From: a virus
IMG/VR virus record: IMGVR_UViG_3300021964_000054
Location: 1 to 64,000 of that record
Strand: one strand, 5' to 3'
Length of the DNA: 64,000 bases
Shown here: piece after piece, positions 9,607-57,000 of the stretch
Numbering within the stretch: position 1 is the first letter of the stretch
Layout of the letters: each line of letters opens with the position of its first letter
Made by a program: the position numbers and the translations under genes
Notes under the pieces: generated by a model
Databases searched by the model: none
What the model was told of the DNA's origin: nothing
Seen by the model: the letters and a program-made list of their open reading frames with translations, nothing else

Positions 9607-9616
9607 ATTATTAATT

Positions 9617-11765: not shown

Positions 11766-11787
11766 GCCTTTTTTTTCATAGTTGAGA

Positions 11788-11818: not shown

Positions 11819-11829
11819 TCTTTGAGCCT

Positions 11830-12833: not shown

Positions 12834-12851
12834 CCTATAATCTGAAGACTT

Positions 12852-13313: not shown

Positions 13314-13316
13314 TAT

Positions 13317-33266: not shown

Positions 33267-33288
33267 ATTAAAAGATTATTAAAAGATT
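33267..33288. repeat. Tandem 11-bp direct repeat ATTAAAAGATT x2
   Basis: Two exact head-to-tail copies of ATTAAAAGATT abut, overlapping the stop codon of the 2038-residue gene. Lying about 17 bases upstream of the putative promoter motif, the repeat could be an activator site or simple A+T-rich slippage. Confidence 0.55.
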
Positions 33289-36200
33289 ATTGAAGTCTTT
33301 TTAATACATCAAGTCTATCAGAAGGATGGAATATGCTTCTGAAGTTTCTAATACCTGTAAGATCAGCAAAATCTTTAACTAACTTAACGTCACCTTTTTC
33401 GTAAGGGCCTGATTTTCTTGAATAAAAAGCATCTTTCCAAACCTCTTGATAATACTCACTGTCATAACCAGGATCAGGTTCTTCACCCCCATTAATCATC
33501 ATCGCCATCCCAAGACTCCACCCGTGATTGACCATTCTAATTAATGTATTAGCTTCTCTCACAAAAGGAACAGCTGTTGTAAAGTTTTTTACATACTCTG
33601 TAGATCCTGCCCCTACAGGGAACATAGACATTGCCTCCATTTTAACACCCCATATCACACGTATCATATTACCTGTAAGCATATCTATTTCTTCATCATC
33701 TTCATCTTTACGCTTAACATAAGAAAGAAGCATGAAAGAAAGAATTCCTAGCATGCCCATTGCCATTGCATCACGCCTTGCATGGTGAACTCTTCTCTTA
33801 TAGAAATCTCCAATATCTTTTGTTGTGGTTTCACCATCTTCTCCTTTAATTACCATGGTATCAATTCCAGTTGATCCTAATTTCTCCATAACTCTAGACC
33901 CCAAGAAAAACTCTCCTAGTGTTGCCTTTGCGCCAAATAGTTTCCAAGACTGCATCACGGCCCTCCAGTACCCCAAGGAAGCCTCACCACCTTCCCAGTT
34001 TGGTCTTAAGTACCCAAACCTATTAAGCATACCTGGAACCAAGAACTTTCTAAAGAAGAACATCGCCTTTCCTAGAAGTGTAGACTCTTTTTGTGTTTGA
34101 TCAGATTTGGCGTAGTTACCTTGAGCTCGTCTTATTTCTGAGTAAATTGTATTTCTAACTCTATTTTCATCTTCTTCACTAAAATCAACATCTGCTCTTC
34201 TAACAAGTTGACCTTGTTCATTTTTTGCATATGCTTGATGAACCGGCACATAAACTATGTTGCCATCAGAATCTCTTTTATATGTCTTCTCACCTGTAGT
34301 AGGATCTACACTTGCTATTTCAGGGAATCTATAACTATTCATTATAGCATACATAACAGTTACTCCAATTTCTGTATCACCTTTATCCTGAAGTAAGAAT
34401 CCTAACTCTCCAGGAGCAGTCAGTCTTTCCATACTTTTTCTCTTACGACCCCCAGACACATCCTCATAATATTTAATCATATCTTTTTGAAGAGGATTAT
34501 ACATTCTATACAACATGGTTGAATCATGCAAATCGTGAACTCTACCCCAATCAGAAAAATAATTATGAATAAAACCATTGTAGCCATATACCATCTTCTT
34601 TGCCACAAGATAGTCTTCTCTACTATAGAAATCATTTTCATTTGAACCCGCTGCCAAAAATGCTTGAAGATTACCTGCTACGTAGTTTTTTGTCTGGTTA
34701 GCTAAATCAAAACCAATCCTTACAAATGCTGTCCATCCAAAAACAGCACCGGCAATCTTTTGAAACTCTCTATTTTTTTCCTCAGAAGTTTGTCCAGAAA
34801 GGAACTTTTTAGACTCAAACTCTAAAAGTTTAATGACCTCATCTAGTTCAGCCTTTCTTTTTTCCATGTTTACTTCAACACTTTCACCCTTTTCGTTCTC
34901 AATATATTGAACACCTTTAGTGGCCAATGCATCTCTTTGCATTTTAAGAAACTCAATTGAAGACTCGCTAATAGGAAGAACTTCTTGCATTGCAATATTC
35001 ATATGAGCTTCAGTAGTCCACTGCATTACCGCACCAATAACATCCTCAGTCTGTAAATCCTCTGATAGTTGATCTGCAAACCTGAGTCTTAAAGACTGAC
35101 CCAAATCACCAAAAACGTTTTCAACTTTATCATGTTGAGACTCTGTGGTCTTCAAGTGTTTATCAAGGAATATGTTTGCTTGCTTTTTAAATGCTGCCAA
35201 GAAGCCATTTCTAGCTACATTCTCTACAAGACTTGATGAAACACCAGGTACACCGTATCCAGTTTTTCTACCTTCAACCTTTTCCTGAAGACCAAAGAAC
35301 ATCTCTGTTAGAGCATCATATAACCTTTTTATGTCAGAATTGTTTTGTATGTCCAAATACTTTGGATTCATATTTTTTGAAGGTGACATTCCAGGCGTTA
35401 TAACATACCTGTTATCACTATTAATCATCAACTCTTTAGGTAAAGGTATTCCATCAGGTCCTTTTATAAAGTTCTCATTGTAAGCACCAGGTTTTGTCAT
35501 CAACCTTCCCTCAGCTTTCAAGCTTTCCATCTCTTGAGGATTCTTCTTAAGCTCTTTTATTTCCTCATTTTTTAATTCAACTCCATCAAGAGTCCAGTTA
35601 CCCAACTTCAAACGCTTTAGTTTATAGTATTTAGGATTAGGAACTGTCTCCATATATTGATCTTTTACAGCAGGATTAGGAACATTCTCATAGTTAAATG
35701 ACTTTGGCTGCTTGGTAGGAGCTCCGTGGTCAACTATAGATTTATATTTGTTAACATGATTCTTATTAAACCATTGCTCAAATTTTTGTTCCTGCTGATC
35801 AAACTCAACAGTTGCTGCAATCAATTCTTCTTGAGCTTTTTGTATTTCCTCTTTGTTACCAGAAGATTTTGCAAGAATAAGTTTATTGTTTGCACCTCTC
35901 ATGTCTCGTAATGCTCTTTCTAGTATTCTATATTTACTTGAATATTCTTGAGAATAATTTTCATTTACCTGTCTAGTTTTTATAGCTCTAATTTGTTCTG
36001 AAATTATTCCAAGTTGCTTTTTAGTTTCCTTATCTAACCCAGATGGAGTTTCTCTCATCTTCTGAATTCTATCTTCTATCTTAGCCTCTAATTCATCAAG
36101 AGCTTTTATTTCTTCATCATTTAAAAACTTAGAAGTAAAGCGACCACCTTGTTTGTGAGGACGCATTATCTTTGATCTTTCTTCATACCATTCAGAAAGA

Positions 36201-39200
36201 ATCATATCTTGAGATGTAAGACTAAAAAGTTGGTCATAAAGAGCACCTAAATCATCATACCATTCTTGACTAGGCCTTGTGATTGTATTAGCTTTTCTCC
36301 ATCTTTCATATGATTCTGGATCATCAGCAAACTGAATTTTTTTATTTCTATCCATTGCTCTGAAGTAACGATCATTTGTATCATACTCATAGAGCTCATT
36401 AAATTTCTCTATACGTCTAGCGTACTCTTCATTTTCTTCAGCAGCCTCTTGAAACAATTTTCTCTGCTCAATGTCTAACTCAATAAGACGATCCCAGTCT
36501 TCATCATTTAAAAGAACCTCATCACCACTAACATGTCTTAAAAGTATCTCTCTTTCTAAATAAATATCTTGAAGCCTGACCCTTATACTTTCTGGAAGAC
36601 CCAATTGAAGTTCATAAAAAGAGTCTACATAAGGAAGATTGGCATTAGCTCTCAACCATTCTATAAATTCAACATTAGCATTTTCTCTTTCCTTAACCTT
36701 TGCCTGCCAAGTGTCGCGTGCAGTTTTGACTTCACCTTCAGATCCTGTATCAAAAATGCTCAAGTATTGAGCTTTGAGTTGGTATATCTCTTTGTTTAGA
36801 GCTCTAATGTTATCATCAAAAGATCTATACGTAGTTTCATATTCCTCAGAGTATGGCTTTGCTAAAAATAACTTGTTCCTTTTGGAAAGCTCTGTTGCAC
36901 CTTTCTCCCTATATACAACTTCTCTCCATTCAGAGATAGCATCATTCAACTCTTCTAAGGTGTATCCTTTGTCTAAAAGTTCTTGTCTAATACTGTCAAA
37001 CTCCATCATTGCAATATCGTTTACAATATTTCTTCTTGCTGTATTTTCTTGATTTTTAAGCATTTGTGTAAATGCAGAAATACCCAAATCTGAATTTGAA
37101 ACAGAAGCAATGAAAGAGTCCATTGCCCAAGTTCTAAGCAAAGAATCTGAATTCCAAATACTTTGAGATCCTAGATAGTTGTTAACACGGGGATCCAAAA
37201 TGCCATCAATATATTTCTCTAAACTTCTATCAGACCCATCAAAGTCTGAAAGTATTTCCTGAATTCTTACTATTTCAGACTCTATCTTTTCTATTTCAGA
37301 TAGACGCTTCTTTCCTTCCGGTCCAATAGATTCTTCAAATTTAGACTTAAAGGTTTTGCTTATAAAAGAATAAAAAGAATCTCTCAGTCCTGTTAATAGT
37401 TGCTTGCTTTCAGAAGATCCTTCTTTAAGCTCTTTAAGCCTTTCTTGCAACTTTAAAAGCTTTGGTTCTAATGCCATCTTTAAATCTCTTTCAACTCCTT
37501 TGAAAACTTTTTCACCAGGAGTTTTAAGAACTTCCATCCAGACTGTTTTTGCAGCTTTCTTAAAGTTAGCCTCAATAGCTGAAAGCGCAATTCTAATATC
37601 TACTAGTTTTCTTGCAGCAGGATTATCTGAAGTAATTGTATTTGTGGGATCATCTATAATCTCCCTCATAATATCCTCTAACTTTGAGGTGATTTCAGAC
37701 AAGGTTTGAGACTTTTGGTATGCCTCAAATATTTGTTTTGTTTGACCTTTTAATGATTTAACAACACCTTTCTTTTTATTAGCAGTACTCATTATTTTTT
37801 CAAACTCTGAGAAAGATTCGTTTGAAACATCATGCATTAATTTTATTTCTGCCTCAACTGTTTCTAATGCTGTGTTAAAGTTTGCAGCATTTCTTACTGC
37901 CTCTTTATCAGCATGCGATGCTGTCCTAATTGAATTTATGATATTCTGAAAAGTATTTAAGCTACTCTTTCTTTCTTTGTAAATTTTCTCAAGTCGTTCA
38001 TCTTTTGTCTCTCTAATCAAGGTGTTTATTTTCTGAAGCTGTCCCTTTACAACTTGATCTAAATCTTCAACAAACTTTTCCATGTTCTCTTGAGAAGGCC
38101 TAAATGAATACGCTTCCTCAGGATTTCTTTTAAGGCGTTCTTGTCTTTCTGTTTCACCAGGAATAGGCATTGCTTTAGAAAGAGCCTCCTCAAATTGCTT
38201 TATATGTTCATCTATTGTTCCCCAAAATGTAGGCTGCTTATAGTTTCTTTTTGCAACAAGATTTACAGCTTGAGCATAGTAATCTTGGTTTTCAAAAATA
38301 TGAATAGCTTGTCCTTTGTATTCGTTAGTGTCTTTGTCAATATCATAAAGCAAGGAGAACACAGACTTTTTGTTAACATTGATTCCATTTTGTTGCAGCA
38401 TTCTATCATACAACTCAAGTTGAACCCTCCAAGTATCAAATGTATTTCTAGGTAGTTTTGCAATATCCTCATTTGTTCCAGGTCTAATTACAAGACTGTA
38501 AGAAGCCTCGCTTCCAAGCTTTGAGAAAGTGAACGCTTTATCAATTACAGTACTTGTACTAGCAACACCTGAGTCAGGATCAATGTCATTTCTAGACTTG
38601 ACCATGTGTTCAACCTTTTTTGTCTTAAAGTCAATAATTTGAGCATTACCTCCACCATCAATTAAAAGCATATCAATTCTACCAATAACTTTCTTATCAT
38701 CAACAGACTGTCCAACAACTGTTATTTCAGGAAGCAATATTGCTCCTGTAAAGTTATAGTAGTCTAACTTTTCTACAAGCTCAAGACCCATCTTAAACAT
38801 TTCATCTTCAGTTAGATTGATAATATCAAAAGGATTTTTCTTCACATACTCAGCATATCTTTTAGCAAAAAATGCTTCTGTGTAAAGTTCCTTTAAAGAC
38901 TTGCCACTTCTAATAGAATCTTCTTGTGCGAACTCTAAAAGTTCGTGCATAAAAGTTCCAAATAATTTAAAAGACTCATACTCTTTTGAATCTCCCCTAA
39001 ACTCTGATTGCCCAAGAAAACGTGTTGCTGCAATTGTAACCTCAGGCTCTGCACCTTTATCCTCTTTATCTATATTCTCTTTAAGAAAAGCTTGATAAGT
39101 CTCATTCATTGCAATAAGCTTATCAATAGTTTCCTGCTGAGCTTTACCGGCTCTAAGTCTTACCCTATCTAGCATCTCTCTTTGAGCTGCGGCTCTTGAT

Positions 39201-39403
39201 AATTTAAACTTATTTGAAGATCTAGAAAGTTGCTCATCTTTTTCTTGAACCTTGAAATTACTCATGAGCTTATCAGCTTCCTCTATAGTAGGTATCACAT
39301 TACCATTTTCATGGAAAGCAGCCATAGCCATACCTTCACCAAAATGCTCAACAAGCTTTTTCCATTCTTCAGTACTTTTATTTGGGCAAGAATTATTTTT
39401 CAT
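33287..39403 (-). CDS. Giant virion protein with N-terminal RecB/Cas4-like PD-(D/E)XK nuclease
   Basis: The 2038-residue protein opens CPNKSTEEWKKLVEHFGE. A nuclease core follows at about residues 140-350: LLPEITVVGQ, GRIDMLLIDGGG (Asp244), QIIDFKTKK (Asp258, Lys260) and WRVQLELYDRML (Gln-xxx-Tyr). Residues about 430-1250 are long charged helices and coiled coil. The C-terminal 600 residues are mixed, with NQTKNYVAGNLQAFLAAG, and a hydrophobic segment AMAMGMLGILSFMLLSYV near residue 1890 that may enter membrane. Size and position in the late block suggest an ejected internal virion protein. The nuclease could act on host DNA or on phage DNA ends. Confidence 0.75.
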   Translation of the reverse strand: MKNNSCPNKSTEEWKKLVEHFGEGMAMAAFHENGNVIPTIEEADKLMSNFKVQEKDEQLSRSSNKFKLSRAAAQREMLDRVRLRAGKAQQETIDKLIAMNETYQAFLKENIDKEDKGAEPEVTIAATRFLGQSEFRGDSKEYESFKLFGTFMHELLEFAQEDSIRSGKSLKELYTEAFFAKRYAEYVKKNPFDIINLTEDEMFKMGLELVEKLDYYNFTGAILLPEITVVGQSVDDKKVIGRIDMLLIDGGGNAQIIDFKTKKVEHMVKSRNDIDPDSGVASTSTVIDKAFTFSKLGSEASYSLVIRPGTNEDIAKLPRNTFDTWRVQLELYDRMLQQNGINVNKKSVFSLLYDIDKDTNEYKGQAIHIFENQDYYAQAVNLVAKRNYKQPTFWGTIDEHIKQFEEALSKAMPIPGETERQERLKRNPEEAYSFRPSQENMEKFVEDLDQVVKGQLQKINTLIRETKDERLEKIYKERKSSLNTFQNIINSIRTASHADKEAVRNAANFNTALETVEAEIKLMHDVSNESFSEFEKIMSTANKKKGVVKSLKGQTKQIFEAYQKSQTLSEITSKLEDIMREIIDDPTNTITSDNPAARKLVDIRIALSAIEANFKKAAKTVWMEVLKTPGEKVFKGVERDLKMALEPKLLKLQERLKELKEGSSESKQLLTGLRDSFYSFISKTFKSKFEESIGPEGKKRLSEIEKIESEIVRIQEILSDFDGSDRSLEKYIDGILDPRVNNYLGSQSIWNSDSLLRTWAMDSFIASVSNSDLGISAFTQMLKNQENTARRNIVNDIAMMEFDSIRQELLDKGYTLEELNDAISEWREVVYREKGATELSKRNKLFLAKPYSEEYETTYRSFDDNIRALNKEIYQLKAQYLSIFDTGSEGEVKTARDTWQAKVKERENANVEFIEWLRANANLPYVDSFYELQLGLPESIRVRLQDIYLEREILLRHVSGDEVLLNDEDWDRLIELDIEQRKLFQEAAEENEEYARRIEKFNELYEYDTNDRYFRAMDRNKKIQFADDPESYERWRKANTITRPSQEWYDDLGALYDQLFSLTSQDMILSEWYEERSKIMRPHKQGGRFTSKFLNDEEIKALDELEAKIEDRIQKMRETPSGLDKETKKQLGIISEQIRAIKTRQVNENYSQEYSSKYRILERALRDMRGANNKLILAKSSGNKEEIQKAQEELIAATVEFDQQEQKFEQWFNKNHVNKYKSIVDHGAPTKQPKSFNYENVPNPAVKDQYMETVPNPKYYKLKRLKLGNWTLDGVELKNEEIKELKKNPQEMESLKAEGRLMTKPGAYNENFIKGPDGIPLPKELMINSDNRYVITPGMSPSKNMNPKYLDIQNNSDIKRLYDALTEMFFGLQEKVEGRKTGYGVPGVSSSLVENVARNGFLAAFKKQANIFLDKHLKTTESQHDKVENVFGDLGQSLRLRFADQLSEDLQTEDVIGAVMQWTTEAHMNIAMQEVLPISESSIEFLKMQRDALATKGVQYIENEKGESVEVNMEKRKAELDEVIKLLEFESKKFLSGQTSEEKNREFQKIAGAVFGWTAFVRIGFDLANQTKNYVAGNLQAFLAAGSNENDFYSREDYLVAKKMVYGYNGFIHNYFSDWGRVHDLHDSTMLYRMYNPLQKDMIKYYEDVSGGRKRKSMERLTAPGELGFLLQDKGDTEIGVTVMYAIMNSYRFPEIASVDPTTGEKTYKRDSDGNIVYVPVHQAYAKNEQGQLVRRADVDFSEEDENRVRNTIYSEIRRAQGNYAKSDQTQKESTLLGKAMFFFRKFLVPGMLNRFGYLRPNWEGGEASLGYWRAVMQSWKLFGAKATLGEFFLGSRVMEKLGSTGIDTMVIKGEDGETTTKDIGDFYKRRVHHARRDAMAMGMLGILSFMLLSYVKRKDEDDEEIDMLTGNMIRVIWGVKMEAMSMFPVGAGSTEYVKNFTTAVPFVREANTLIRMVNHGWSLGMAMMINGGEEPDPGYDSEYYQEVWKDAFYSRKSGPYEKGDVKLVKDFADLTGIRNFRSIFHPSDRLDVLKRLQ

Positions 39404-39404
39404 T

Positions 39405-41639
39405 TTATAAGCATTTAAGTTTGTCTAGTATATCTTGGTTGTTATATCCATTTCCAGCCAAAGCATTAGAAAGAATTTTAGTTTGTTTCCCAAACTCTTC
39501 AAGATCCATTGTTTTGCTTGAGAATCCATAAAGATAACGAATTGCATCTTCAGTAAAGTTTAAATCATTTAAATCTTGCATTATTTTATTTTCATTTTCA
39601 TCTTTAGCATTGTTTGCAGAGTCAGATTCTAATGCTTGGAAATAAACAAGACGATCATTAAAGTCAGGGGCCAAAATGTTATCTTCATCAAAGTAGTCCC
39701 ACATTTGATAATCATATGCATCCTTAGGTCTACCCATCATATTAAGTTTCTCATAAAAGGCATAATTAAAGTGAGCTAACTTCAAACCATAATCTGGATC
39801 AGGCACTGAAATATATTCTTCTGAAGTTTCTGGTCTTAAAAAGAAATCAAAGAGATACATCTGATCTATCTCTTCTTCTGTAAAATGTTCAAGTCTATCA
39901 TTAAAAGAACCTGTTAATGATTTAAATCTATCTTTAAGTTCTTGATTTTCAGACCATATTGCATTCACTGTAATGTAGTATGCATTCGCTTTTTGGTTGT
40001 AAAAAGTATATAGCATATCCATGTCAGGATACTTTTTAAGTATCTTCTTAAAGTAATCAGACTTATCAACGATATCTTCCATCACAAGTTTCATGTTGCC
40101 CTGAATCTTGTATTTTTTTGCTTCTTTAAAGTTACCTTCTGAAACCAACTTTCTATACATCGCATCATTTTGAAGCTGCTCCTCAGTCATGTAATCTCTT
40201 TTGTCAAGACTTAGACCATGAATATCAGAAGGAACAATCATATCAATATCATGAAGCGCATCTATCATAGGTCTATAAACAGTGCCTTGAAGACGGTATG
40301 CTAAAGATCCTGTAATAATATTTCCCCAATCACTAAACCATTTCATAAACCCTAACGCTCTTCCACCATCTTTAGCGTTTTGAGTTTCAATGGTTTCTGT
40401 ATAGGACAAAAGATTAAAGTCTGAAGTATCTTTCTTAAGTCTTTTTAGCTTAGACTTGTCCCCTGCTAATATATCTTTTGCAATAAGATCTGCTTCTCGC
40501 TCTATAGACGAATAACTAAGCTTGGCAAGAATGTCAGAAATAAAGTCAATTATTCTTTGGACAACACTCCAAAACTCTGAATCCTGCTGGGCCTTATAAT
40601 TTCTAACTAATGCTATACCAATGGCCTGACCAACTGCTTCTTTCTTGATTTTATATATGTCAATATTACCTTCAGAGGTTTTGTATATATCTTTGTACTG
40701 ATTGAACACCCTTTCATAACCATCCCACTTTTCTATTTCATTAAACATAAAAGTGAACAACTGGTTTCCAGACTTCTTTTTAGAAATTGATCCTAACAGC
40801 TCAACAAAAGCATGTCCATACTCCTCAGGAAGAGTCAGCAAGTTTCTGTTCTTTGCGTAATAAATTGTTTTTGCAAGAACATCAAATACACCAACACTAT
40901 CAACTCCAAACTTTTCTTTAAGGTTATCTATCTCCTTATTTCTAATTTTAAAATCTGAGAAATAGTCAATTAGCAATGCTTCAAGTTTTTTGTCTAACGG
41001 CTCTTGCACAGCTTGATAGTATTGGCGATCCGCTTCTTTTACTATCTCCTTAGAATAAATAGATAAAACTTCTGATACTCTAAATTGTTTTAGACTAGGA
41101 TTATTATCAAGTATTGATATAAATTGCTTTCTAAATTCTGGAGCCATCCCCACTCTTTTAAGCTCAGCGTCAAGTTTCTTATTAGATCCAATTGATTTTA
41201 CAACTTTGTTTACACCTTTTAATCTTTTTTGAACCTTCTCCAAGTTTGTCAGAACATCATCTACTTGAAATAAATAGTCATCATCAAAATCTTCACCGGC
41301 CCTTTCTGCATCCTCTTTAAGCATTGCTCTTGCTTGTTCAGTGTTGACCTTAAGTAGATAAGACTCATAATACTCTTCAATTATTTCTGGACCTGGCTCA
41401 AATACAACTTCATGCCCATTTGTTCTCTCAACAACATAAGCCATCTTTCCACCATAATCCCTAGCAGATCTTTTCAAAAGGCTTTGTGCAACTTGATATG
41501 ACTGACCAGGGAATTTAAAAAGAGCATTAGACACAAATAAAGTATTTGGACTAACTTTTTTAATATTACCTGTTTCATAAGTTTTGACAGCTTTCTTTAT
41601 AAGTGCCTTTTTAATATCAACTTTACATTTTAGTGCCAT
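39405..41639 (-). CDS. Virion protein with nucleotidyltransferase-like domain
   Basis: The 744-residue protein is helical at the N-terminus. TLPEEYGHAFVELLGSI near residues 270-285 resembles the active-site helix of a zincin with the first His replaced by Glu. The middle has ITGSLAYRLQGTVYRPMID then ALHDIDMIVP: Gly444-Ser445 and Asp464-x-Asp466 match the G-S...D-x-D signature of Pol-beta-fold nucleotidyltransferases, with a somewhat long spacing (18 residues). The acidic C-terminal third (YLFDFFLRPETSEEYISVPD onward) may complete the fold. It lies 6 bases after the polymerase gene and 1 base before the nuclease gene, so it is probably co-packaged. Confidence 0.68.
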   Translation of the reverse strand: MALKCKVDIKKALIKKAVKTYETGNIKKVSPNTLFVSNALFKFPGQSYQVAQSLLKRSARDYGGKMAYVVERTNGHEVVFEPGPEIIEEYYESYLLKVNTEQARAMLKEDAERAGEDFDDDYLFQVDDVLTNLEKVQKRLKGVNKVVKSIGSNKKLDAELKRVGMAPEFRKQFISILDNNPSLKQFRVSEVLSIYSKEIVKEADRQYYQAVQEPLDKKLEALLIDYFSDFKIRNKEIDNLKEKFGVDSVGVFDVLAKTIYYAKNRNLLTLPEEYGHAFVELLGSISKKKSGNQLFTFMFNEIEKWDGYERVFNQYKDIYKTSEGNIDIYKIKKEAVGQAIGIALVRNYKAQQDSEFWSVVQRIIDFISDILAKLSYSSIEREADLIAKDILAGDKSKLKRLKKDTSDFNLLSYTETIETQNAKDGGRALGFMKWFSDWGNIITGSLAYRLQGTVYRPMIDALHDIDMIVPSDIHGLSLDKRDYMTEEQLQNDAMYRKLVSEGNFKEAKKYKIQGNMKLVMEDIVDKSDYFKKILKKYPDMDMLYTFYNQKANAYYITVNAIWSENQELKDRFKSLTGSFNDRLEHFTEEEIDQMYLFDFFLRPETSEEYISVPDPDYGLKLAHFNYAFYEKLNMMGRPKDAYDYQMWDYFDEDNILAPDFNDRLVYFQALESDSANNAKDENENKIMQDLNDLNFTEDAIRYLYGFSSKTMDLEEFGKQTKILSNALAGNGYNNQDILDKLKCL

Positions 41640-41645: not shown

Positions 41646-44600
41646 TTAACAATTATCTTCATCATTTAAATCAATACCAGGTTTACCTTTAGGCTTCACC
41701 TTGTTTTCATCAGTTGGATCTTCATCTAAAAGACCCTTAAGCATATCCTCTGTATCCTTAAACTCTTCATCAGTACCCACAATATTACCATTATAGTCTT
41801 CAAATTCCATTGAAATCTGACCAGCATCTTGTGCAGGTATAATTGGTTTTTCAGGCTTTTCAACTGAAGGCGTTTCAGATACATCTTCCTCAACTTCTGC
41901 ACTTTCAGTTTCTAAAACAATGTCCTGAATCGTACCATCATAGTATCCATAGATGGCAACCAAGTTATCATTTAATGGAACAACCTTATCAAGATTGTTT
42001 TTTATTTCAGAATTCACCTCCACAGGTTTAACGCCATTAGCTGTGCCTAAAGTAATATGAGGATTTTCATTTGTTGATTTATCATTCTCTAACACAAGTG
42101 CATCAATCTTGTCAGTAATAAGTCTACCTATAACTTTTAAGCTTGTTCTTTCTCCAACCTGAACATCAAGTCCACCTCTATAAGAAACTGTCATATGATG
42201 AGCGTGTCTATTGGGCATACTAGTTGGGTACTTTTCATCCATTTCCTTTCTGCTTACAAATGCACCGGTATAGACAACGTTTCTTTTAGCAGGAGTACGC
42301 TTAGTATCTGGGTCGTTTGGATTTACTGTATTATTACCCTTGTCAATGACTTCTGTTTTTGATATAAGCCTTTTATAACGCTTTGCATCTTCTTTTGTAA
42401 ATCCTAGAGGACTTATCATTTCAGACGAAAACTGTTTAGGTATTGCAGTGTATGTAGCTTTCTCACCTAGAATAGTCATTCTATTAGATCCTTCAGCTAA
42501 TGAATTAACCAAAGTTTCTCCCATGTTCTTGTCATCTGATGTATCCTCATTACCTTGATAGACATAATAAGTATCTTTAATCTTAATTAATGGTGGGAAA
42601 GCAAAGGTATTAATAGTGTCATCATATGATATACCCATCTTTCTTCCAATCTCATAAATAGCAAGCTTTTCTTTTTTATCCTTACCATCAATAGACATAT
42701 CTATTGTAAACTCAGCTTTTAGCGTACCAGGATTAAGATTAAATGAACTAGCAGACTTTTTAAATACTTCCTTTTTTTGTTTTGCTGTAAAGCTAAACAC
42801 TGATGAAATTGCATTTCTGACAGCATCCTTTGCCTCTAAAATATCATCCTTAGTATCACCTTCAAGAATGTTTTTAACTAACCTTGAACTTTTGTTTTTC
42901 TTTTTCGCATCATAATACCAAGACAATCTTTTTATCTCAGGAACAATAGCTTCACCCTTTTCGTTTTGTTCAGCTAAAGAATAAGCAACTTGTGTTAACA
43001 GGTTATCAAAGAAATCATAGACCTCATCATTTGACATATCCTCTTTGCCAAAAAACTGCCTAACCTTTGACAGTACTATTTGCTTAGCTTTTGCAGAATC
43101 ACCTTCTTCCAAAGAGTCAATTTCTTGAGATGCGTCTTTAAGTGATAAAATAAACTCGTCAATACCTTTTGAAATAGGTGCTAACAAACTAGGTGGAAAG
43201 AACTTTAAAAATGATCCAGTAGCTGTAATCATACCAGTTCTTGCCAACTCATGATAAAACAATCTTTTAACAAACATCCTAGCCTCATTATCTGTAGGAT
43301 GGTTATATAGAAAAGCAAGATCTTGAGCTATTTCTTCAGCTAGAGTACCTTTGAGTTTTGATCTTTCATAAAGCTTTATAACTTCTTCATTCAATCTAAG
43401 AACTCTATCATTTGACATTGCATTAGCAGTAGCATCACCTTTTTCATTTCTCAGATATTTTAAGAACTTGTTATCTGAATACTTTGATTTAAACTTAGAA
43501 ATCTCTGTAGATAAATTATGAGTAAACCAATAGTCTGGAGTAAATGTATCAAGTAAATTCTTGTCATCTTTATCTATAAGATTTTGAAGCTCAGGATTTG
43601 AAGATGATCTTGAACCTGGGAATGACTCTAAGAACTTTCTAATTCCAACAAATGCTGTTATTGTTTCTGCAATATGCCTTTTGTCTTTAAATGACTTTGT
43701 GAACAACCCTACCAAAGGCCTAAAGAATGGAGACTTTTCTAAGAATAGCTTTGAGGCCTGTTCATTTAGATCAGACAGCATCTCCTGCATAGTATTGTAA
43801 ACAGAATCTTTTGAGAAGATTCTAGCAGCAGAGTCTATTGTAAATATACTTCTGTCATTTGTAATCTCATAAATAGCATCAAGTAGATTATCTATCTCAG
43901 TAAGGGTAGGATTTAGTCTCTTGAACATATTAGTTACCCTAGAAGCCTTAGTTAAAGTATTGCTCTGATTAACCTGATCAATATACATTTTTGTAAGCAC
44001 AAACTCCATTGCTGAATCAGCAAGACCAGTTCCATCTTCAAGTCTAAGATCAAATCCTATTTGAGTAGGTGTAAGAGTGTTTGAGTTTAAAGCATCTTTA
44101 TCAATTGTCTTAGGAGTAAAATCAAATATTATTTTTGAACTAATTACTTTGCCAGACTCAACATCATAAAGACCTGCAAGAATCAAATTTTCAAGAACAT
44201 CTGGGTCCAACTGATCATACAAGTGACCAGAAAAAGTTTTGAAGAGTTCTTCAGTATCTGTAGATAGTGCATTCTTTTGATATTGAACATTCTGAGAAGC
44301 TATTCTTACAGAAGGCATGAAGTTAAATGCTGCAACCATTGTAGGATCTAACCCTAGACCTATCATTGAAAGAGTTGTGTTTACATTTACATCATTCCAT
44401 TGGAGAGCTGCAGGTATAGGTTCTTTTGTAGCATCTGCAAACATACCCAAGATATTACCTATCAAAGCAATAACTCTTTGCTGTTGCTCATTAACATGTG
44501 AAAACTTATCCTTAATCACTCTCTTACCATCCTTATCTAAATAGTCCCAAACAACACCATCCTCATTAAGTTTAAGGTCATACTGACTTGCAAGAGCTAA

Positions 44601-47600
44601 GAACTTGTTCATAACAGCTGTAATACCAATACCATCTTTGTTCATTTGGTTTTCTACTTTAGAACTGATAGCATTATCAAGAGTATAAAGATTACTTTTT
44701 GTTGTCATCTCTTTCAAGTCTAATCCAAAACTATCTAGTATCTTGACAAATTCCTCTGTTGAAGCTCTTTGGTTAATGAATAGTCTGTTGAACACAGCTT
44801 CATTAGTCAAAACTTCTAGAGTAGCATCTAAGTTCTTATTCTGCTGTTTATAACTAACCATCTCAGAATATACAGGATCAGAGTTGAACTGATCAATACT
44901 TGCAGGAAGACCAGAATTTCTAAGAACATCCATTGTTGCTTGATACCCAAATAGTGCATCTAACAAATCTTTTGATCTTTGCATGAAATTAATCTCTGTA
45001 TTCAAGTCAGCAATAATTTCACCCTTTTCTTTTCGTTCTCTCCAAGCATCTCTATCAAGACGATTGTTTTCAGTTCTTTCTTTTGCTTCTACATAGTCCT
45101 TTTTAATGTCACCTTTAATTGCAATTAAAGATTTTCTTCTCTGTTTAACAGCAGAATAAATAGTCTTATCTTCAACTTCAAGTGCCACATACATAAGATC
45201 TTCATTTGTAAACCCTAAAGCACCAAGAATATAATCTAAATCACCATCTTTTGGAAAACTAAAAGAACTTGTGGAATCTATAAGTTCTTGTTTTTTATCC
45301 TTAATTGCATCTTTAAACTCTATACTATTTTGCATAAAGTGTAACCACTCAATAAATTGTGCTGTATTTTGATCAGCAAGTTCATATCCACTATAGTCAC
45401 CGTAAAGATGGAAATTACCTGCGGCATCTTCATAAAATGCTTTCATCTGACCAAACAATGAATCAATATCAAAGTCAGATCCAGAAAGAAGATGTATAAA
45501 GTGAGGGACAATTACATTATTAGATTTTGACTCATCTACAAAGTCAACAACCTTAATTGCAATCATAGATCTCTTATCCTCAGTTGGAATACGAACTCCA
45601 AACATTTTGTTTATTCTCGCTAACCAAAACTGTTTTTGACTTGGATTATTAAAAAATGGAGCAGGTACAATTGCTTCTACCCAATGTGTTTTGATACCAG
45701 TTTCTGGATCCACCTCAACACTGACACTTAAAGGCCTTACTCTATACTTAGTATTGTCAGAGTAAAGACTAGGATTTTTAGAAATTTCTTCAGAAGTAAT
45801 TATACGACCTGTTTCAATATCTTCTAAGACTTCATATCCAAAGGAGCTTTCATGAAAATTCTTAAATCCAAAAGCCTTCTCGTCTGTAACATTGTTACTA
45901 TACTGAGCCATAAAATAATATTCCAAAGTTCTTCTTATTACTGGAAGGTTTGGACTAAACTTAGGCTTTCCATTTTCTGTAGCAAAATAAGCGAGAATTG
46001 AGGATGCTGCTCCTTGAGATTCTAGTCCTTCTCTTATTACATCATATAACTTTGCAACATCAATATCACCACCCTCTCTGATCACTCTTTTAAAGTATTC
46101 TAACCTACCTTTCATTACAGCATTCAAAGAGTCTTTGTATTTGTAAAAACTGCTTGATAAGTCTTCAACTGCAAGTTTCTCTGACTCAGTTAAAGGTTTA
46201 CCTTCTCTTATTGCCTCAGCTTCTAAGACTCCAAGTACATCTTTAGGATTTATATCTGCAGGTAAAAGAAGTTTCTTTTGAACGGAAACTTTTGCATAAT
46301 CCTTAACACCACTTGTTTCTACCTGAACATATTTTGATCTATTTGGAACTGGAACTGATGAAAGATTTAGGTTAATCAATCCCTCAGAAGTAAAGTTAGT
46401 ACCTACAGATTCATTTGACAAAACTTGAACCGGCAGTAATGTTGCATTTTTACTTGCTGAAGTATCCATTACTTGATCTACATTATAATGCTCCATTGAG
46501 TTCAGCATTCTATGAAGCATTTTTCTATGCGGCATAGGCATAAAATAAGAATGCACCTTGCTTGTAAGATTTGAAATATCTGCTTCAAGCATTGAAATTT
46601 CTTGAGCAGGAGCTTTGATTTTTATCAGCTCTTCTATAGCTTTTCTAGTATCATAAATTTGAAGATACAAGCTATGTATTTCATCGTATATTCTGTTTAC
46701 TGTTTGTCTACTTGCATTCTTAGGTATAACAACATAACTCACATCCATTCTGTCAATGTGGGCTTCTGAAAGTTTATGATAGACATTTAGTCCTGCCGTA
46801 ACAGTCTTTTTAGAGTTTAGAACAATCTTCAAGGACTTTAGATAATTTGCTTCATCTTTAGTAAGCTTTCTGTAATGCTTGGCTATCATCAAGTGTTTTG
46901 CAGTTTCATCTAGCCTACCTGTTGAATCATAAATATCCATATGATGCATCAACAAAGAATGAGACTGACCATCATATGTTTCATGGAAAAACTTTCTATC
47001 TCCATCTACGTCCTGATCATACGCTTCTAAAAGTTCTAATCTTTGTTCTGGTGAAAGAGTTGGGTCATTTTCAATCTCAGCTCTATTATAATAAGGCCCT
47101 TTATCTAGATGGCCGTCATATATAAATGCTTCAATTGTATTTAAATATGCAACTTTATGATATCCTTCCTTTAAATTACTACCAGAAGCAACAACTTTCT
47201 TAAGACGTTTTACATAGTCTTGATTATTTTTGACATTCATGGCTATATCGCCATCCATAAGTTCATTAAGCATCAATGCATTTGACCAATAATTCATGAA
47301 GTGATCAAACAAAACTGACTCTAACACACTATCTGACCCTGCAGATTTAGGATAAATTGAATTTAACTTTAATGTTCTGTCTTGGAAAGGATTCTTTTTT
47401 CTTTTTGACTTCACACTTATGCCACTATCCCTCATGAAATCTGGTAGTAAATCAGACTTATAATAAATCGTTGGTTGATCAGTAGTTTTAGATGGAACAA
47501 TAACCTTTTCTACAACACCTTGATCTACAAGTTTTTGTAAGTGATTGTCATATGTTTGTTGTGCAAAAGTATCCAAGCTAGACAAAAGTTCATCTATAAG

Positions 47601-50600
47601 TTCTACGGGGATGTCTTCAAACTTTTCAGCACCAACAAGTTCATTTGTTTCAGTATCTAAGATTGAACCACCTTTTGCCAATTCAATTATCTTGTCACGA
47701 AGCTCTGGAACATTTTCAAAAAAGTCTGACAACTTGTTAAAGTTGTAAGCTCTTAAACTATCAGCATCAACTTCAACAGTTCCATCAGGATTTAATGTCG
47801 CATTGTACTTGTTTATGTTTTTGTTGTCTAGGCCTAATTCATAATTTTCCTTTCTTTCAAGTCTACTATTCCACTCACGCTTTATCCTATTAAACTCTTG
47901 GCGAACAACAGCTTCAAGATCCTTTACAATCAAAAGATGCTTATCTTTATATAAAAGCTTTCCTTCACGTTCTCTGAGTGATCTTGTTTTATCTGCAGTT
48001 TTTACAGCAGATAAGTTGACAAAAGACTTATGTAAAGAGCTTGTCAGAAAGTTTGTTTGTGTTGCTTCAAGCTGGTGAAAACTTCTATCATAAACTTGTA
48101 TAGTAGTTCCATCCTTGCCGGTAATAGTTTTTCTAGACAAGAAAGACAGCATGTTAAGAATATACAATGACTTTGCATCAATATCTTTAAACACTTTTCC
48201 ATCTTTGTATTCATCTTTCCCAACTATCTGTTGAACACCCCCAAACAAAGAACTTTCAAAATTATTTAAGAAGAGTTGCATTTCTTTTGATTGATCTGTT
48301 ACTTCACCCTTAAGGATTGGTCCTAACATAGGATTATCTAAAAAGAAATCTCTGACAAAGTCATCCCAATACATTTCATCTTCAAGTGCTCCCTCTAAAC
48401 CAAGAGTTCTCAATCTCTGAGCAAGCATTGCCATTGGGTTGTATTTGCTAAAGCGATATATGGATTTTCCTTCAGCATTTAAAATAGTACTATGAACTAT
48501 ACTAGGATCATATTTAACAATATAAGCAGATGCACTTTTTAATATGACCATGAATCTTCTGATATTATCAATCTTACTTTCATCATCAAGTTTATTTGAA
48601 AATGCAGGATCAGGATTATTGCCCTTGTACATAGAAGTTAAAAGGCCCCCTAAACTTCTAAAGAAATCTTCCTCCAAGTATTGACCTTCTCTAATAAAGT
48701 TTTCGTTTAAATCATAGAACTCCACATGAGAAGGGTCTAAACCTAAAAGAGGTTGCTTGTATTCATTGTTATGAATAGCCATCAAAGAAAGTCTAATTAA
48801 TGACTTAGGAACATCAATCCCAAGTATCTTCATGTTTTCGTTAAGCTCATTTGTTAACTTATTCAATCTAGACTTAGGACTAACGCTTGTTAGTATCTTA
48901 CCCTTAGATGTAACTGTAATCTCTTTAATTAAGGATAACAATTTTCTGTGAGCATCCTTGTATACTTTTGTGTTTGCATTCTCTGAGTGAGAAATATTTA
49001 TACTAGTGATAATCTGATTTCTTTTATCCCTAACGCTTCTTTCTAAAACTTTATCTGTAACTCTAAAGTTAAACCTCTGTTGAACAGGTGGCAATGGAGA
49101 TGCTAACTCTGCTTCAGTTAAAGGCTTAGGAGTACTGACATTAAACATTTTCCAATTCAACTCCACATTGTTAAACACATCTACAAGCATGTTGTAAAGC
49201 CTTTTGTTACCAGGCTGACCATCAATCATTTTTGTAGAGTTTTCTATTTCATTATGCAAAGCCTCAAAATCAAGTCCGGTGGAAACACGCCCATCTTCAA
49301 TCATAGTCTCTGCAAAAGACTTTATACTGCTAATAATCTTATCAGGAGAAAGATTAGAAGTAACCTTTACAACACTAGTAAATAAATGCTCCCCATCTAA
49401 CATTCTAGGTATAACAGCTCCAGTTGCATCATCTATCTCATCTCTTCTTATTGTAGAAAAGAATCGTCTTACTTGAGAAACATATGAATCTATTACATTC
49501 ATATTCCCTAGAGTAACGTCAAAATCATTAGACCCTTCTAGTTCTTGATTTGCAGAATTAGACTCACTATCACTAACCTTTAAGTTCTCATCATCAAAAA
49601 TTGCCTCAACTTCATCAGCATTAACAATAACCTCAACATCACCAGATCTAATTAGATCCATACGAACTGCAGAGTCATACTTCTTTTTAACAAGTTTCTT
49701 AAGAATCTGATAAGAATACTGACCACTTGTGTTGTCAACATATCCTACACCTGTAAGGTTATATGGATTTTTAGTTGCTCTATTATCATATCTAGAATCA
49801 CCAGTCAAGTTTATATCATCAGCCTGATAACCTTTCATTCTTGCACCAAGCATAAATCTATAAGCATTAAACATGTCGCCATACTTCTGTTTTATATCTA
49901 ACGCACTTGCCTTAGTCTTTTCATTTTGATTTATGATCAAGTCAATATTATAAATGCTATCAATGATTTTAGTTGTTACATTGTCAAACTTATCGTCAAA
50001 ATTGTCGTTAGAATCATCTTTTAACAACTCTCCAACAACCATATCTATAAGTCTGTTTTGCTCAGAAGTTTGAAGCCAATGAATATCAGTATTTCCTTGT
50101 TCATTTAAAATAATGTTTGGACCAGGTATAAGTTCAAACGCAACTTGACCGTCATACATATTTGATTTTATAGCTGCAGACTTGTAATAGCCAGTTGCTA
50201 TTTTGTCATAAATAAGATCAATATCATTCTCATAAGCCTTAAACGCTCTAATAAGTCTTTCTAAAAGATCATAAAGAAAACCAATTATTCCTGATGGCTT
50301 CTTTTTCTTTGACTTTTGATTCATATAGTTTTGAAAACCATCCGCTAAAATTTCTTCAGCTACAAGTTCTGCCATTCTATCAATGTTATACTCATACCCT
50401 CTCTCTTCTGCAAACTTCATTAAAGCTTCTTGAGTGAACTTCTCATAATGCTTAGAGTCATTCATCACTGTCTGAATGAGATTTCTTCTCTCGCTGTTTG
50501 TCATTAAGTATCTAAACACACCATGAAAAGCCTCATGGAATACAACACCCTTTACTTTAAGTTGATCATTTAAATAGATTACTCTATTTTTAAAGAGCCC

Positions 50601-53600
50601 TAAAACAGTTCCATCTATTTTTGACAAGTCAACAACATCCTTAACACCATCAAGTGAAATACCAAATTGAGGTAGTATTGAAGACAAGAACTGAACCTCT
50701 GACATAAGCTCGCTGTCAGAAATTATCTGAACGCCTTCAGGAGTTTCTACAAGTTTGAATCTCTCAACGCGATTGAAGTCATCATCATTATCATCTCTTT
50801 TGTCTTCTTTTTGTTTTCTATATTCTTCTGCCAAGTAGTCCTCAATCCTAGTTAACTCATCTTTAATGTCAGCCTTAACCTCTTGACCTCTAGCCATATT
50901 TAATCTTATGGATTCAATCTGGGCTTGATCTGGCTCTGGTTCAGCCTCAAGCATTTGCAAATTCATATTTGCATCTATCAATGCATTATCAATGTTGATA
51001 ATATCTTCAGAGAGTTTTGTCTTTCTATTCTCAGCTCTCTTTACTGAAGTCAGTGCTTCTTGCTGTTCTTTAGTGAGAGTCTTAACAGGGCTAGATCCCG
51101 CTTCAGGTTTTTTAGCAGGCTTTTTTTCTATCTTAGTATTATCAATTTTTTTCCTGTCTTCACTAGAAGTTGGTCTAACACCTTTAGGTTGAATTGAAAC
51201 AGTCTTAGAAGATGCAGACCTTACATCAAGATTTGATAAGCTTTTCTTAAACCAGTTGTTATCCTTTTCATTGTAGCTTCCAACATGGATTTTAGGAATA
51301 AGTCTTCCATCTTCAAGAATGTCAAAAAACAAATACTCAGGCTTATACTCCCCGCTAAAAGTTGCATCTTTTTCAAACAGTTCAAAAAACTCAGCATTAC
51401 CTACATCAATAGTTTCACCGCCAACTGTCATCTTCTTTGTCTTCAAAGGAGTGACTATTGCTCTCATTATCTCATTGCTAAACTCCTGGAGCAACTCGGT
51501 TTCAACATAATCAACTAGTTCAGACATTTCTTTTGTCTCAAGACCATCAATCTTTGATTTGTAAATGGTATTATAAAGTTCCATTACCCCTTCAATAGTC
51601 GATAAATCTAAAGTTTGCAATGCCTTGTTTGAAGCAACTGCAGCCTTTACCTTTTCACTTTTTGACATCTTTTCATAGATGCTTTTTATAACAGACTCAT
51701 TAACAGGAAACCTGAACCCTAACTTCTTTCCTCCAGTGATTGCAACTTGATTAGTCTGAACTATATCTCCAGTAGTAGCCTCAGTATAAGGCTCAGTAAA
51801 ATCCCCTCTCTTTGAACCATAAGGTCCAAGTTCTATTTGTAGCTTGTTCCCTTTCTGTGGTTGCCCAGTAGATAAAGAAAAGCTTAATGCATACTGACCT
51901 TCACCATCTTTTATTGCACCCTTGAAATTAAACGCACCTTGTTCTTCAAAAGATTTTACCTTTCTAGCCTTTTCGGCAGGTTTTGCAGTTATTGCATCAA
52001 ATAGTTGAGAAATATATGAAGCAAGCATTGGAGCAGCAGACAATGCACCACGAGATTCTAATACTCTATGACCAGAAGCATTTCCTTTTTTGTCAAACTT
52101 AATAACAAAGTTTCTTGTTATTCGTTTTATGACACTATTGTTTATTCTGCGCAAAGTACCATCTTCAGATCTTTGGGACTCAATTATCTTTTCAATTTCT
52201 GCGTCCTCTGCTTTGAAGTGTTCAGCTGCCCAGTCTTCATAATTTAGTTGATCTCTAGCATAGTCAACATCAGTGATTAGTATTGGTTCACCAGTTTCAG
52301 TTTTAACCTCAATAAACTCATTAGAAGCAAGAAGCGAAACCATTGAGTATGAAACTTTTCCTCCAGGTGATATATCTTTTTTAATGTAAAAAGGAACTTT
52401 TCTACTGTCCTCCCTTTTGATAACATTGTTTTCAGCATCAACAGTTACAACCGGCAATTCTAAAGAAATAGAATCATCTACTTTTATTTGACTAAGCAAA
52501 TCTTTTCTTTCTGTTTCATGTCTTTTTGAAGTAACAGAATATGAATCAAAAAATTCATTTGTTATCTCAACACTGTCTTTACCTTGCTCAAGTGCCTCAT
52601 TAAACTTTTCTCCAACAACTTCTTTAAGGTTAGAAAGATGTGCAGATGCATTTGAAATAGATCTCAAGTCAGACTCGCTAAGTGCAACTAGTGAACCAGT
52701 TGAACTTTGCTTTAATGAAAGCATTTGAATTTGTTTTAAGTCCTCAACATTTGAAAGATCAACTTTTGTAGTTGTGTTATCAGCATCAACAAATACCATG
52801 TCATCATTAGAATGAACATAGAATATCTGACCAGTTGAAAGAACCTTACCCATTATTGCAAAAGAGTCTTCTGAAGCTTTTGGTCTTGAAACTGTAAGCA
52901 CTCTTGCAGAAGGATTAGATTTAAGCTTTGCAACCTGCTGAGTAGTTTCAAATGTCTCATGGTTTCTATTAGATAAAAGTTTAAACTTTTTTTCATCTCT
53001 AGCTAAAGACTTCATTCTTTGAACCCGTGAATCACCTACAGGGCCAACCTTAACTGCAAAAAACTTTATGCCAGATTCTGGAGCTGACATTTTTGACAGA
53101 GCTTTTGTTAAGTCTGCTTGTTCCATTGGATCTGCAGCTCTAAACTTAAAACCTGAAACAAGTTCATCGTTTCTAAAAATTTCCTCACCGTTGTTAGTTC
53201 TTGAAAATACTTGTGGTCTTGACTGCTTATCTACTAATATCTCATCAGGGCTTATTGGCTCAAGTAAACCATCAGAATTTAACTTAAGAAGTGCATTTGG
53301 AGATTCTGATTTAGCATCTCTAACAGCCTCTATCATAGTACCATCCTTTAGAATAACCAAGTAATTAGAAAGACCAGCATAGTCTGAAACCTCTCCATTT
53401 ATATCTATATACTCTGACTCAAATGTGAGCATCTTGTCAAAGGCCGCATCAACTATTTTGAATAAGCGATTTTTGTAAACATCATTCCTTGCAATGGTTC
53501 CCATCTTAGCAATGTTACCCTTAATCTCCTTTTTGATTTTTTCAGAATAGTTTGAACGATCTTGATCAGTTTCAAAGTCATTAAAAATAAAGAAGTTTGT

Positions 53601-54029: not shown

Positions 54030-57000
54030 TTATTTTTGACAACCGTGTATATCTTTTAATTTCTGAATGATTGAATCTTCTGTAACGTCTGCTTCAGTTG
54101 ATTCTTGCTCAGCCTCAGTAAATTTAGCACTTTCTTCTTGAACTTCATCATCAACCTTCTCTTTTGGTTGAGCTTTGATTGAACTTAACCTTGTATCAAG
54201 ATCTTGAATACTTTCCATTGTAAGAGCTGATCCAGTTGCTGTTGTTGTTGTTTCAAACAAAAGAAGTTGAGTTCCTTCTTTTATAGCCTCATTTCTTTCT
54301 TGCTTTTCAACCTCCAAGACATCTTCATAAGTAGTGCCAAGTATTGCTGATTTTTTTGCAGCTTCCAACTCTCTCATACCCTTAGGTATTTTGCTATACT
54401 CTTCAAGTGTTGCTATTGGAGTTTTTGAGCCCTTGTTATGAATTTCTAGCAACCTCTTACCTCTACTGACAAATAATTGTAAATCTTCAGAGAAGTCACC
54501 CAATCCTTTTTCAGAATCACTTAGAAACTGTATTCCAAACTCAACATTTTGCTTATCATTAACAAGACCCTCTACTATAACTTCTGCATCATTTAGTGTA
54601 GGAAGATTTTCTATCACCACTGATTGATTTGAATCTCTGACTTCATAACCGCTTTCATCATCACCATATATCTGGTACTGACCTTCTTTGTCTGAAGCTA
54701 GATTATCAGTTGTTTCAGCATTATCGCCCTCCTCCAACATAGATTCAATATCATCCATGTTTTCCTCTCCTGGGAAATATTCTTCTGGTTCTTTAGAAGG
54801 TGGTTGTTCACTTGCCTCTTCTTCTAAGGTTTTAATGTAACTTTCAGCCTCCTCTTTTGTACTAAAAGCCAAAACATCATCACTTGTGGTATCAGTAATT
54901 GGATTACCGCCTTTTTCTATGTACCAACCATATCCGTCCTGATAAGCTACAGAATACTCACCTTCTATATTACCTTGAGATCCTAATTCTTTTTCTAGTT
55001 CATCAATCTCTTGTCGATGTGCTTTGTAAATAGTACCCTCTCTATTAGAAAGTTTTTCCTTTTTTGCATTCTTGTTTGCAATAGAATTCTTTAAAGAATC
55101 ATTAGCCTTTTGATTATCGTTAAAGTTTTTCCAATCTTCATCAGAAACAGCCTCTTTAGTTTGAGTTAAATTAGAAAGTTCCTCTGGGGTAACAAGATTT
55201 AATTTCAAAGCTTCAGATATAGCATCTTGATCACCCATTGTTTGAACTTCTGCTGTAGAATATTGACCAGACTCTACAAGTTTTCTTTTTGAGAATGACA
55301 CAGGATTAGCACCAATATGATTTTCAACAGCTTTGAATATATCATCTAATACTGATTCTTGCATGTTTATATTAAACGCTCTCTTTAAGAAGTCAGCTAA
55401 TAACGACAAGAAGTCTTGCCATACAGATTGCTCTCCATATTTACTAGGTACTTTTTGAAGTTCAGCTTGAAACTCTGGATTACTATATGCTTCTGCTAAA
55501 AATTCATGGATATTTGTAAATCCATAAAAGTCTGTATCAAGTCCTGTCGCTTGTAGAGTTTCTTTTGCATGTGTAAATAAATCTTGAACTTGTTTTGCAA
55601 ATTCACCTTCAGGTGCATTGTTAAGTTCATTAGATGTCATATAGTGAATCATTTCATGCATTAGTATTCCCTCAAAAGACATTCCCAAATCAGCAATTGT
55701 AGGGTCTATGACTATCATATTATTATTTGCATCATAGTATCCAGGCGCATATGTTTGCTCACTGTTAAATTCAATCTTATGTTCAGGATTGATGAATGGT
55801 AAAAAGTTTTTGAGAACTTCTTTTACGTAAGGATGGGTATGATTACTTGCGATGGCCTTTTGGACTACTGATACCAAGGTTCCAGTTGACATATCAGAAA
55901 TACCATAGTATTCAATAATGTCATCAAAGTTTCTGTCATCAGTATCTAAAATGAAAAGATTAGTACCAGCTCTTCCTTTTGTTACATCAACATCTCTTTC
56001 ATCATAATTTTTAGTTTTTGTTCGCTTACGAGTTCTTTTTGCAGCTACTGCATCTTTTAAACTTTGAACTTTCTTATCTATCTCATCTTTGAAAAACTCA
56101 TAGATTTCAATTTGCTTTGGTGAAAGTTCTTCACCCGCAAACATTTTTTCTGCAATAATATTTTTGGTAAAGTCATCTACCTCTTCTTCAGTTTTAAATC
56201 TAGTATAGACCTCATCTGAAACATCTTCAAATGTTTCTGGGAAGTACTCTCTATTAAGCCTTGCTATCTCACTATTCATGATAGTTTCAAGTTCTAAGTA
56301 AGCTTCATAAGCCATCTTAAATTGCTCTGTACCAAGATTTTCATTTACAACAACTCCCAATAAAGTATTATATGCATCGCTTTTCTTTATAGTATTTTCA
56401 AGTCTCTCTTTAATTTTAGGCATCAGTGAACTTAGGTTCTCCGCAAACTCATCTTCAGAAACTTGATCTAGATTTTCCTGCACAACAGATTGAGTAATTT
56501 GCAGAGAGGTTCCAATGATGAATCCTTCTATCATATTAAGCCAATCTAAAACCTCTTTTTTAAACTTTCCATCAGACATTCTTTTTAGAACTTGTCTATA
56601 GTGATCAGGATTATACAATGCATCTACAGCTCTCATATAATCTTTAGCATCTTGATCAAGTCTAATGAAGTCAATAATTTTATCAAATCCACTTCTAAGT
56701 TCTTCTTCAGAAACTTCAGTACTTATTCCGGCTTGCTTGTTTCTAAGATTTACAAACTTCCTAAATGCTTCAAGAGCTTTTTCATCATGCAAATCCCAAG
56801 CATCTTCTTTTTCTTTTGTAAATCTTCCAGTCTTAGAATCTCTTTTTTGTCTTTTAAACTTTCTACCTACATATGTATTTTTAACCTTATCTTTTTTCTC
56901 AATAACTTTACCAGTGTCTGGATCACGTCTTTTTGAAACAACATCTCTGTCATCCCAATACGTCATCCATTCATCGTATATTTTCTTTTCCTCTCTTTTC

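Follow-up and report, generated by a model that had tools for sequence, protein, structure and literature searches.

We have found that the giant RNA polymerase (RNAP) of a crAss-like phage carries a compact 2H phosphoesterase domain near its C-terminus. Its relatives and its predicted model show it to be a 2H domain with a fold closest to the CNPase and tRNA-ligase CPD enzymes, and alignment with close relatives of the polymerase shows that it sits in a C-terminal slot which they leave empty or fill otherwise. The best explanation of this arrangement is that the domain is an injected 2',3'-cyclic phosphodiesterase that heals RNA ends, a reading to which we give about an even chance.

The window, i.e., the whole stretch of DNA analysed, comprises 64,000 nucleotides (positions 1 to 64,000 of the IMG/VR record IMGVR_UViG_3300021964_000054). 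Its source record is a linear virus fragment of 64,581 bases, that is, an incomplete genome. The features referred to below are as follows.

3901..4410 (+): stand-alone gene for a cREC (cyclic-phosphate processing receiver domain); Pfam PF20274, E 2.8e-13
33287..39403 (-): 2038-aa protein, the last of the transcription block, with a PD-(D/E)XK nuclease domain
39405..41639 (-): downstream 744-aa protein
41646..54017 (-): giant crAss-like RNAP open reading frame (ORF), 4123 aa, with the C-terminal 2H domain; RNAP-core HMM and tblastn
41649..41696 (-): tail of the RNAP that follows the 2H domain (..GIDLNDEDNC) and ends in Cys; common to L092/L093 (..SIDPTDENNC)
41931..42284 (-): residues 3912-4029, a compact phosphoesterase domain of the 2H type, similar to tRNA-ligase CPD and CNPase; AlphaFold2 model, fold match and relatives
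42051..42059 (-): H3987-I-T3989, the second of the two catalytic motifs; its H and T do not vary in the 37-sequence alignment
42189..42197 (-): H3941-M-T3943, the first of the two catalytic motifs; its H and T do not vary in the 37-sequence alignment
45462..45476 (-): DFDID (D-x-D-x-D) RNAP catalytic motif, residues 2848-2852; aligns with L002, L004, L005, L006 and L008
50523..50537 (-): zincin-like motif HEAFH of the RNAP protein (N-terminal half, residues 1161-1165)
54030..59675 (-): giant 1881-aa protein upstream of the RNAP; zincin-like motif HEMIH

The protein that carries the domain

The window genome encodes DnaB-like and other helicases, a DNA polymerase, a primase and a ribonucleotide reductase, and its minus strand holds a block of giant ORFs. 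The nuclease domain of the 2038-aa protein in this block matches PF12705 at E 1.6e-7. In addition, a short ORF at 22653-22982 (+) gives weak DUF3990/PARP-like ADP-ribosyltransferase matches; it overlaps 22822-23571 (+) in another frame, and is possibly a broken or frameshifted gene.

Judged by its sequence, the protein that hosts the 2H domain is a crAss-like RNAP. In tblastn it matches Crassvirales RNA polymerases, best of all the 'putative RNAP catalytic subunit' of Rudgehvirus (E 6e-14). An RNAP-core HMM built from other contigs reaches E 1e-38 with the window protein. Among the eight named Crassvirales RNAPs examined, it gives about 1e-30 to 1e-33 for seven (L002-L006, L008 and L009) and 3e-25 for L007; phi14:2 gp077 is matched at E 1e-18. 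The DFDID core and the position in the transcription block are as in the crAss-like virion RNAPs phi14:2 gp077 and crAss001 gp50. A search with the RNAP profile retrieved no solved structure for the window RNAP by sequence.

In two phages, homologues of this polymerase are virion proteins. For phi14:2 gp077, the annotation as a structural protein comes from MS/MS, and the RNAP proteins gp47, gp49 and gp50 of phicrAss001 have been detected in virions (PMC10172136). Because of these homologues, the window RNAP, and hence its 2H domain, is probably packed in the virion and injected with the DNA. The first-pass annotation of the window had proposed a 2H phosphoesterase fused to the virion RNA polymerase, and this identity of the host protein agrees with our results.

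Sequence evidence for the 2H domain

The same annotation had reported two H-x-T motifs 46 residues apart. Both motifs, H3941-M-T and H3987-I-T, are present at that spacing in the 4123-aa ORF, with the flanks as quoted. The domain that it placed at 42020-42290 does exist, but the folded unit in the AlphaFold2 model is longer, covering residues 3912-4029 (window 41931-42284).

Matches found with the window sequence alone are few. Pfam tRNA_lig_CPD (PF08302) reaches the domain at E 7e-4 with 19.6 bits, below the curated cut-off of 23 bits. No annotated phage was matched by the domain at E 0.01 in tblastn, and at E 10 there are scattered short matches only; a locus scan with the window sequence alone yielded no relatives either. 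We have collected relatives with a DNA pattern from the motif region followed by a profile scan, which gave dozens of phage proteins with a 2H domain. The relatives L042, L044 and L084 pass the curated cut-off of tRNA_lig_CPD by themselves.

A profile of these relatives, which were first chosen by a DNA pattern containing the active-site motif, matches the window protein at E 8e-9 (Z=100000). Since the pattern included the active site, the motif letters were masked and the match was tested again. The match to distant relatives then drops to E 0.66, and that to the closest subfamily holds at E 1e-17 to 1e-20. In the alignment of 37 2H sequences, full invariance is confined to six columns, in the order H, T, N, H, T, N: the H and T of each motif, and two Asn. 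Nearly all of the aligned sequences (35/37) are matched by tRNA_lig_CPD, the best at 4e-8, and 28/37 by phrog_36523, a family of unknown function. Overall, these sequence comparisons indicate that the 2H domain is not a chance match, as do the confidently predicted model and the structures that it matches.

Predicted fold

Neither phmmer nor a profile search found a relative of the domain among PDB sequences, so the evidence for the fold rests on structure comparison. With the 37-sequence alignment, AlphaFold2 models the domain at pLDDT 90.6 and pTM 0.85; from the single sequence it returns a useless model (pLDDT 34). The comparison with known structures, which the first-pass annotation had put forward as a check, recovers a 2H fold: the predicted duplicated alpha/beta structure can be aligned over its full length with 2H enzymes, among them CNPase and tRNA-ligase CPD. 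The top match is CNPase (Z 12.1, 2.1 A, 117/123 residues aligned; VIA-align 2), and the fungal RNA kinase/CPD structure 6u05 is matched at Z 10.9 over 117 residues. The likeness to the tRNA-ligase type of CPDase, suggested earlier from the motifs, is borne out by these two matches.

The catalytic domain of CNPase (mouse, e.g., 4wcc) matches the window domain over its whole length, and its two catalytic His/Thr pairs, H230/T232 and H309/T311 (named in structure titles), have counterparts in the window domain. From this whole-domain alignment, H3941 and H3987 would share one active site, by analogy with H230 and H309 of CNPase. On the other hand, the window domain has ~120 aa versus ~210 aa in CNPase, shares 20% identity with it, and is carried on a phage RNAP. 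The CPD of fungal tRNA ligase (PF08302; 6u05) agrees in both fold and sequence; here too the window domain is more compact, and, unlike the fungal ligase, the window RNAP has no recognised kinase or ligase domain. Acb1, the anti-CBASS nuclease (7t26), has the same superfamily fold with a clearly weaker match (Z 6.0), and no sequence-level link between it and the window domain was found. All rows for Acb1, LigT and plant CPDase lie at Z 6.0 or less, with the Arabidopsis CPDase at Z 5.6.

A variable C-terminal slot of the polymerase

With the RNAP-core scan we have fetched 80 RNAP loci. The nearest relatives of the window RNAP, which are 37-49% identical to it, match it until just before the 2H domain: L092-L098 align with it up to residue 3881-3917, beginning at its first residues wherever the sequence of the relative includes a start. 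Beyond this point they differ. The RNAP of L098 holds an AlkB-like 2OG-Fe(II) oxygenase (7e-14) and an RNase H (1e-11) in the slot, L092/L093 and L096 have unassigned stretches there, and L094, L095 and L097 have almost nothing. The comparison shows that the C-terminal slot of the 2H domain is vacant in some close relatives and has other contents in the rest, and, with AlkB and RNase H at this place in L098, the C-terminus has the look of a slot for exchangeable payloads.

An assembly artefact or chimera was considered as the source of the fusion and rejected, because the RNAP homology reaches up to the insert and the lineage's own C-terminal tail resumes after it.

Two further observations concern the C-termini in this family. 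The AlkB and RNase H domains of L098 lie within the last ~540 aa of ORF 2033-14767. A C-terminal stretch of ~60 residues (..ILDKLKCL) in the 744-aa protein of the window resembles the RNAP C-termini of L094, L097 and L098, as if a module of this size had moved between neighbouring proteins.

Relatives of the domain and earlier descriptions

No other RNAP with a 2H domain was found among the fetched loci, and the named Crassvirales RNAPs examined have none in the RNAP itself. The subfamily scan retrieved four crAss-like contigs, L173 (the same contig as L146) to L176, in which the 2H domain lies in a giant protein, between a WFGDW motif and a likely ADP-ribosyltransferase region. A zincin-like HExxH is found in the 2H-bearing protein of L173, L175 and L176, and in a neighbouring ORF for L174; the ART-PolyVal match in L146/L173 has an E of 4.9e-21. 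In L146 the giant protein with the 2H domain is directly upstream of the RNAP. Moreover, in three of these four contigs the 2H/ART giant protein is close to the RNAP gene. L041 has a stand-alone copy of the domain with 41% identity, and the tree groups the window domain with L173-L176 and L041 (support 100/99). The named crAss-like phage Kolpuevirus 'frurule' also encodes a stand-alone 2H protein, recognised by HMM after a first short tblastn match at E 10, which is placed elsewhere in the tree than the window domain. A scan of genome contigs added one relative in a Parcubacteria MAG.

Other members of the 2H family are fused to enzymes: to AAA_33/PNK-like kinases in L054 and L066, to PolyA_pol/CCA-adding nucleotidyltransferases in L044, L073 and L084 (E to 2e-22), and to both PolyA_pol and HAD_SAK_1 ('Swiss Army Knife RNA repair proteins') in L043. 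The L043 ORF, 71-4738, encodes a 1556-aa phage protein that joins the 2H domain, the PolyA_pol nucleotidyltransferase and the HAD_SAK_1 phosphatase; it is on the same contig as L018.

Fusions of 2H domains in phages have been published before. Polyvalent proteins and MuF/portal fusions with such domains were described in 2017 (PMC5512222) and 2022 (PMC9503650), so the earlier remark that no such fusion was known needs narrowing; for the RNAP itself, we found no report of one. As in the polyvalent, MuF and portal proteins of Iyer et al. 2017 (PMC5512222), the domain is located inside a large, probably injected phage protein; unlike them, it is at the C-terminus of a catalytic RNAP. In the relatives L173-L176 it is also close to zincin-like and ART regions, a further likeness to the polyvalent proteins (PMC5512222). 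The text of PMC5512222 has no mention of 'crAss', and in open-access papers we found no description of such a domain in a variable C-terminal slot of the catalytic RNAP in crAss-like phages. As components of injected phage proteins, 2H domains are already known, while the position on a crAss-like RNAP, in a slot that elsewhere holds other enzymes, was not found described.

Proposed function and rival explanations

In the proposed mechanism, an active-looking 2H 2',3'-cyclic phosphodiesterase would form the C-terminal module of the virion RNAP, between the polymerase body and the conserved tail. The polymerase would enter the cell together with the DNA, as its homologues suggest, and the domain may then act on RNA with 2',3'-cyclic phosphate ends, opening these to 2'-phosphates. 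This RNA would have been cut by metal-independent RNases of the host, and is most likely tRNA; the opening would be the first step of end healing. The phage cREC and kinase, phosphatase and ligase functions of host or phage might act alongside or later. It should be mentioned that gp61 of crAss001 is annotated as a polynucleotide kinase.

This reading, in which damaged RNA would have its 2',3'-cyclic phosphates opened at an early stage of the infection, is favoured by the RNA-end enzymes that are fused to relatives and by the cREC gene. The predicted fold leans to CPD without deciding the substrate. Several points stand against RNA healing: no RNA ligase, polynucleotide kinase or tRNA was found among the window ORFs scanned, the record being a 64.6-kb fragment; the window domain alone stays under the Pfam cut-off (19.6 of 23 bits); and the nearest crAss-like relatives pair the 2H domain with an ADP-ribosyltransferase and with no repair enzyme. 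In addition, according to Iyer et al., polyvalent 2H domains lack an association with RNA ligases and may be RNases or signal degraders, the roles that these authors preferred (PMC5512222). A 2022 review names both RNA repair and injected counter-signalling (PMC9503650).

The domain may instead be an injected counter-defence enzyme. As infection begins, it would break down the nucleotide alarm signals, cyclic or 2'-5' linked, of CBASS, type III CRISPR and similar systems. Acb1 is itself a 2H enzyme and is matched by the model at Z 6.0, such a role has been suggested for the 2H domains of polyvalent proteins by Iyer et al. (PMC5512222; PMC9503650), and the closest 2H relatives are in giant crAss-like proteins with zincin-like and ADP-ribosyltransferase regions. 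However, the fold is much nearer to CNPase and tRNA-ligase CPD than to Acb1, and the fusion partners of relatives include kinases, CCA-adding enzymes and a HAD domain of RNA repair; we regard signal degradation as rather unlikely, though deserving attention. The ADP-ribosyltransferase regions also bring in a 2H domain that acts on Appr>p. The same subfamily occurs just before an ART-like domain in the four crAss-like relatives (E 4.9e-21 for ART-PolyVal in L146/L173), the superfamily includes Appr>p hydrolases, e.g., 1fsi, with Z 5.6 to the model, and the window has its weak PARP/DUF3990 match at 22653-22982. Nevertheless, this activity seems very improbable, as the search of the window RNAP gave no ART domain and as CNPase is closer in fold to the model than the Appr>p enzymes are.

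The physical joining to the RNAP, together with the RNase H in the same slot of a relative, would also fit an RNase or transcript processor that works on RNA from its own polymerase, by Usb1-like end trimming or by maturation of transcript ends, and Usb1-like RNase activity has been proposed by Iyer et al. (PMC5512222). We consider this quite unlikely, since the fold is matched best by CNPase/CPD, not by Usb1, and since the slot is empty in the close relatives L094, L095 and L097, which indicates that the domain is dispensable for transcription. Least credible of all is a catalytically idle domain that serves in RNA binding or as a spacer only. Although the domain occurs once in the lineage and in a variable slot, every catalytic position is kept, both H-x-T motifs included.

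Terminal cysteines in the transcription block

The virion transcription proteins of crAss-like phages contain hardly any cysteine. Of the 4123 residues of the window RNAP, only residues 3 and 4123 are cysteines. The proteins around it show a similar placement: in the upstream 1881-aa protein the only Cys is close to the C-terminus (..HGCQK), the two of the 744-aa protein are close to its opposite ends (MALKC.. / ..KLKCL), and in the 2038-aa protein the only Cys is close to the N-terminus (MKNNSC..). Thus, in the four-protein block (33287-59675, minus strand), there is a Cys on both sides of every internal junction and none at the outer ends.

We have surveyed the cysteines in the window, in loci L092-L171, and in L179 (phi14:2) and L180 (crAss001). 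The counts come from related sequences and so are not independent events, and partner subunits were assigned by size, position and strand, not by homology. Across the relatives, 68/72 junctions adjoining the RNAP have a Cys on both sides. A C-terminal Cys is present in 68/68 RNAPs with a separate downstream subunit versus 0/9 fused ones, and an N-terminal Cys in 19/23 with a separate upstream partner versus 1/13 fused. Internal cysteines make up 0.08% of residues in complete RNAPs versus 1.4% in twelve other window genes.

The pattern is perfect in phi14:2, where gp078 has Cys 1797 of 1797, gp077 has Cys 3 and 2179 of 2180, and gp076 has Cys 3. In crAss001 there is one extra internal Cys (gp47, 2339 of 2341; gp50, 5/1334/2404 of 2412; gp49, 5). 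Here gp47 is on the opposite strand from gp50-gp49, which argues for a cause at the protein level rather than at the DNA level. Inter-subunit disulfides are known from the tail and portal vertex of crAss001 virions (PMC10172136), and the word 'cysteine' has no occurrence in the text of that paper.

The simplest guess from this pattern is a head-to-tail disulfide, or some other Cys-mediated coupling, of the injected cargo. Taken together with the slot, one could picture the RNAP C-terminus, from the polymerase body to the terminal Cys, as a swappable bay for injected enzymes (2H; AlkB plus RNase H), and at the same time the giant virion proteins as chained head to tail through their cysteines, with the 2H domain as one wagon of a covalent train. 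We put this combined picture forward tentatively and would sooner doubt it than rely on it.

Implications

If the preferred reading of an injected, RNA-end-healing phosphodiesterase is right, an enzyme that heals RNA ends (or degrades signals) would be present at time zero, before any phage gene is expressed, and it would share one polypeptide with the polymerase that starts transcription. RNA repair would then join the jobs of injected phage proteins. If the cysteine pattern does reflect covalent chaining, it would bear on how crAss phages maintain the order of their megadalton cargo during ejection. In addition, since the slot is variable, it may be possible to mine relatives' RNAP C-termini for further injected activities.
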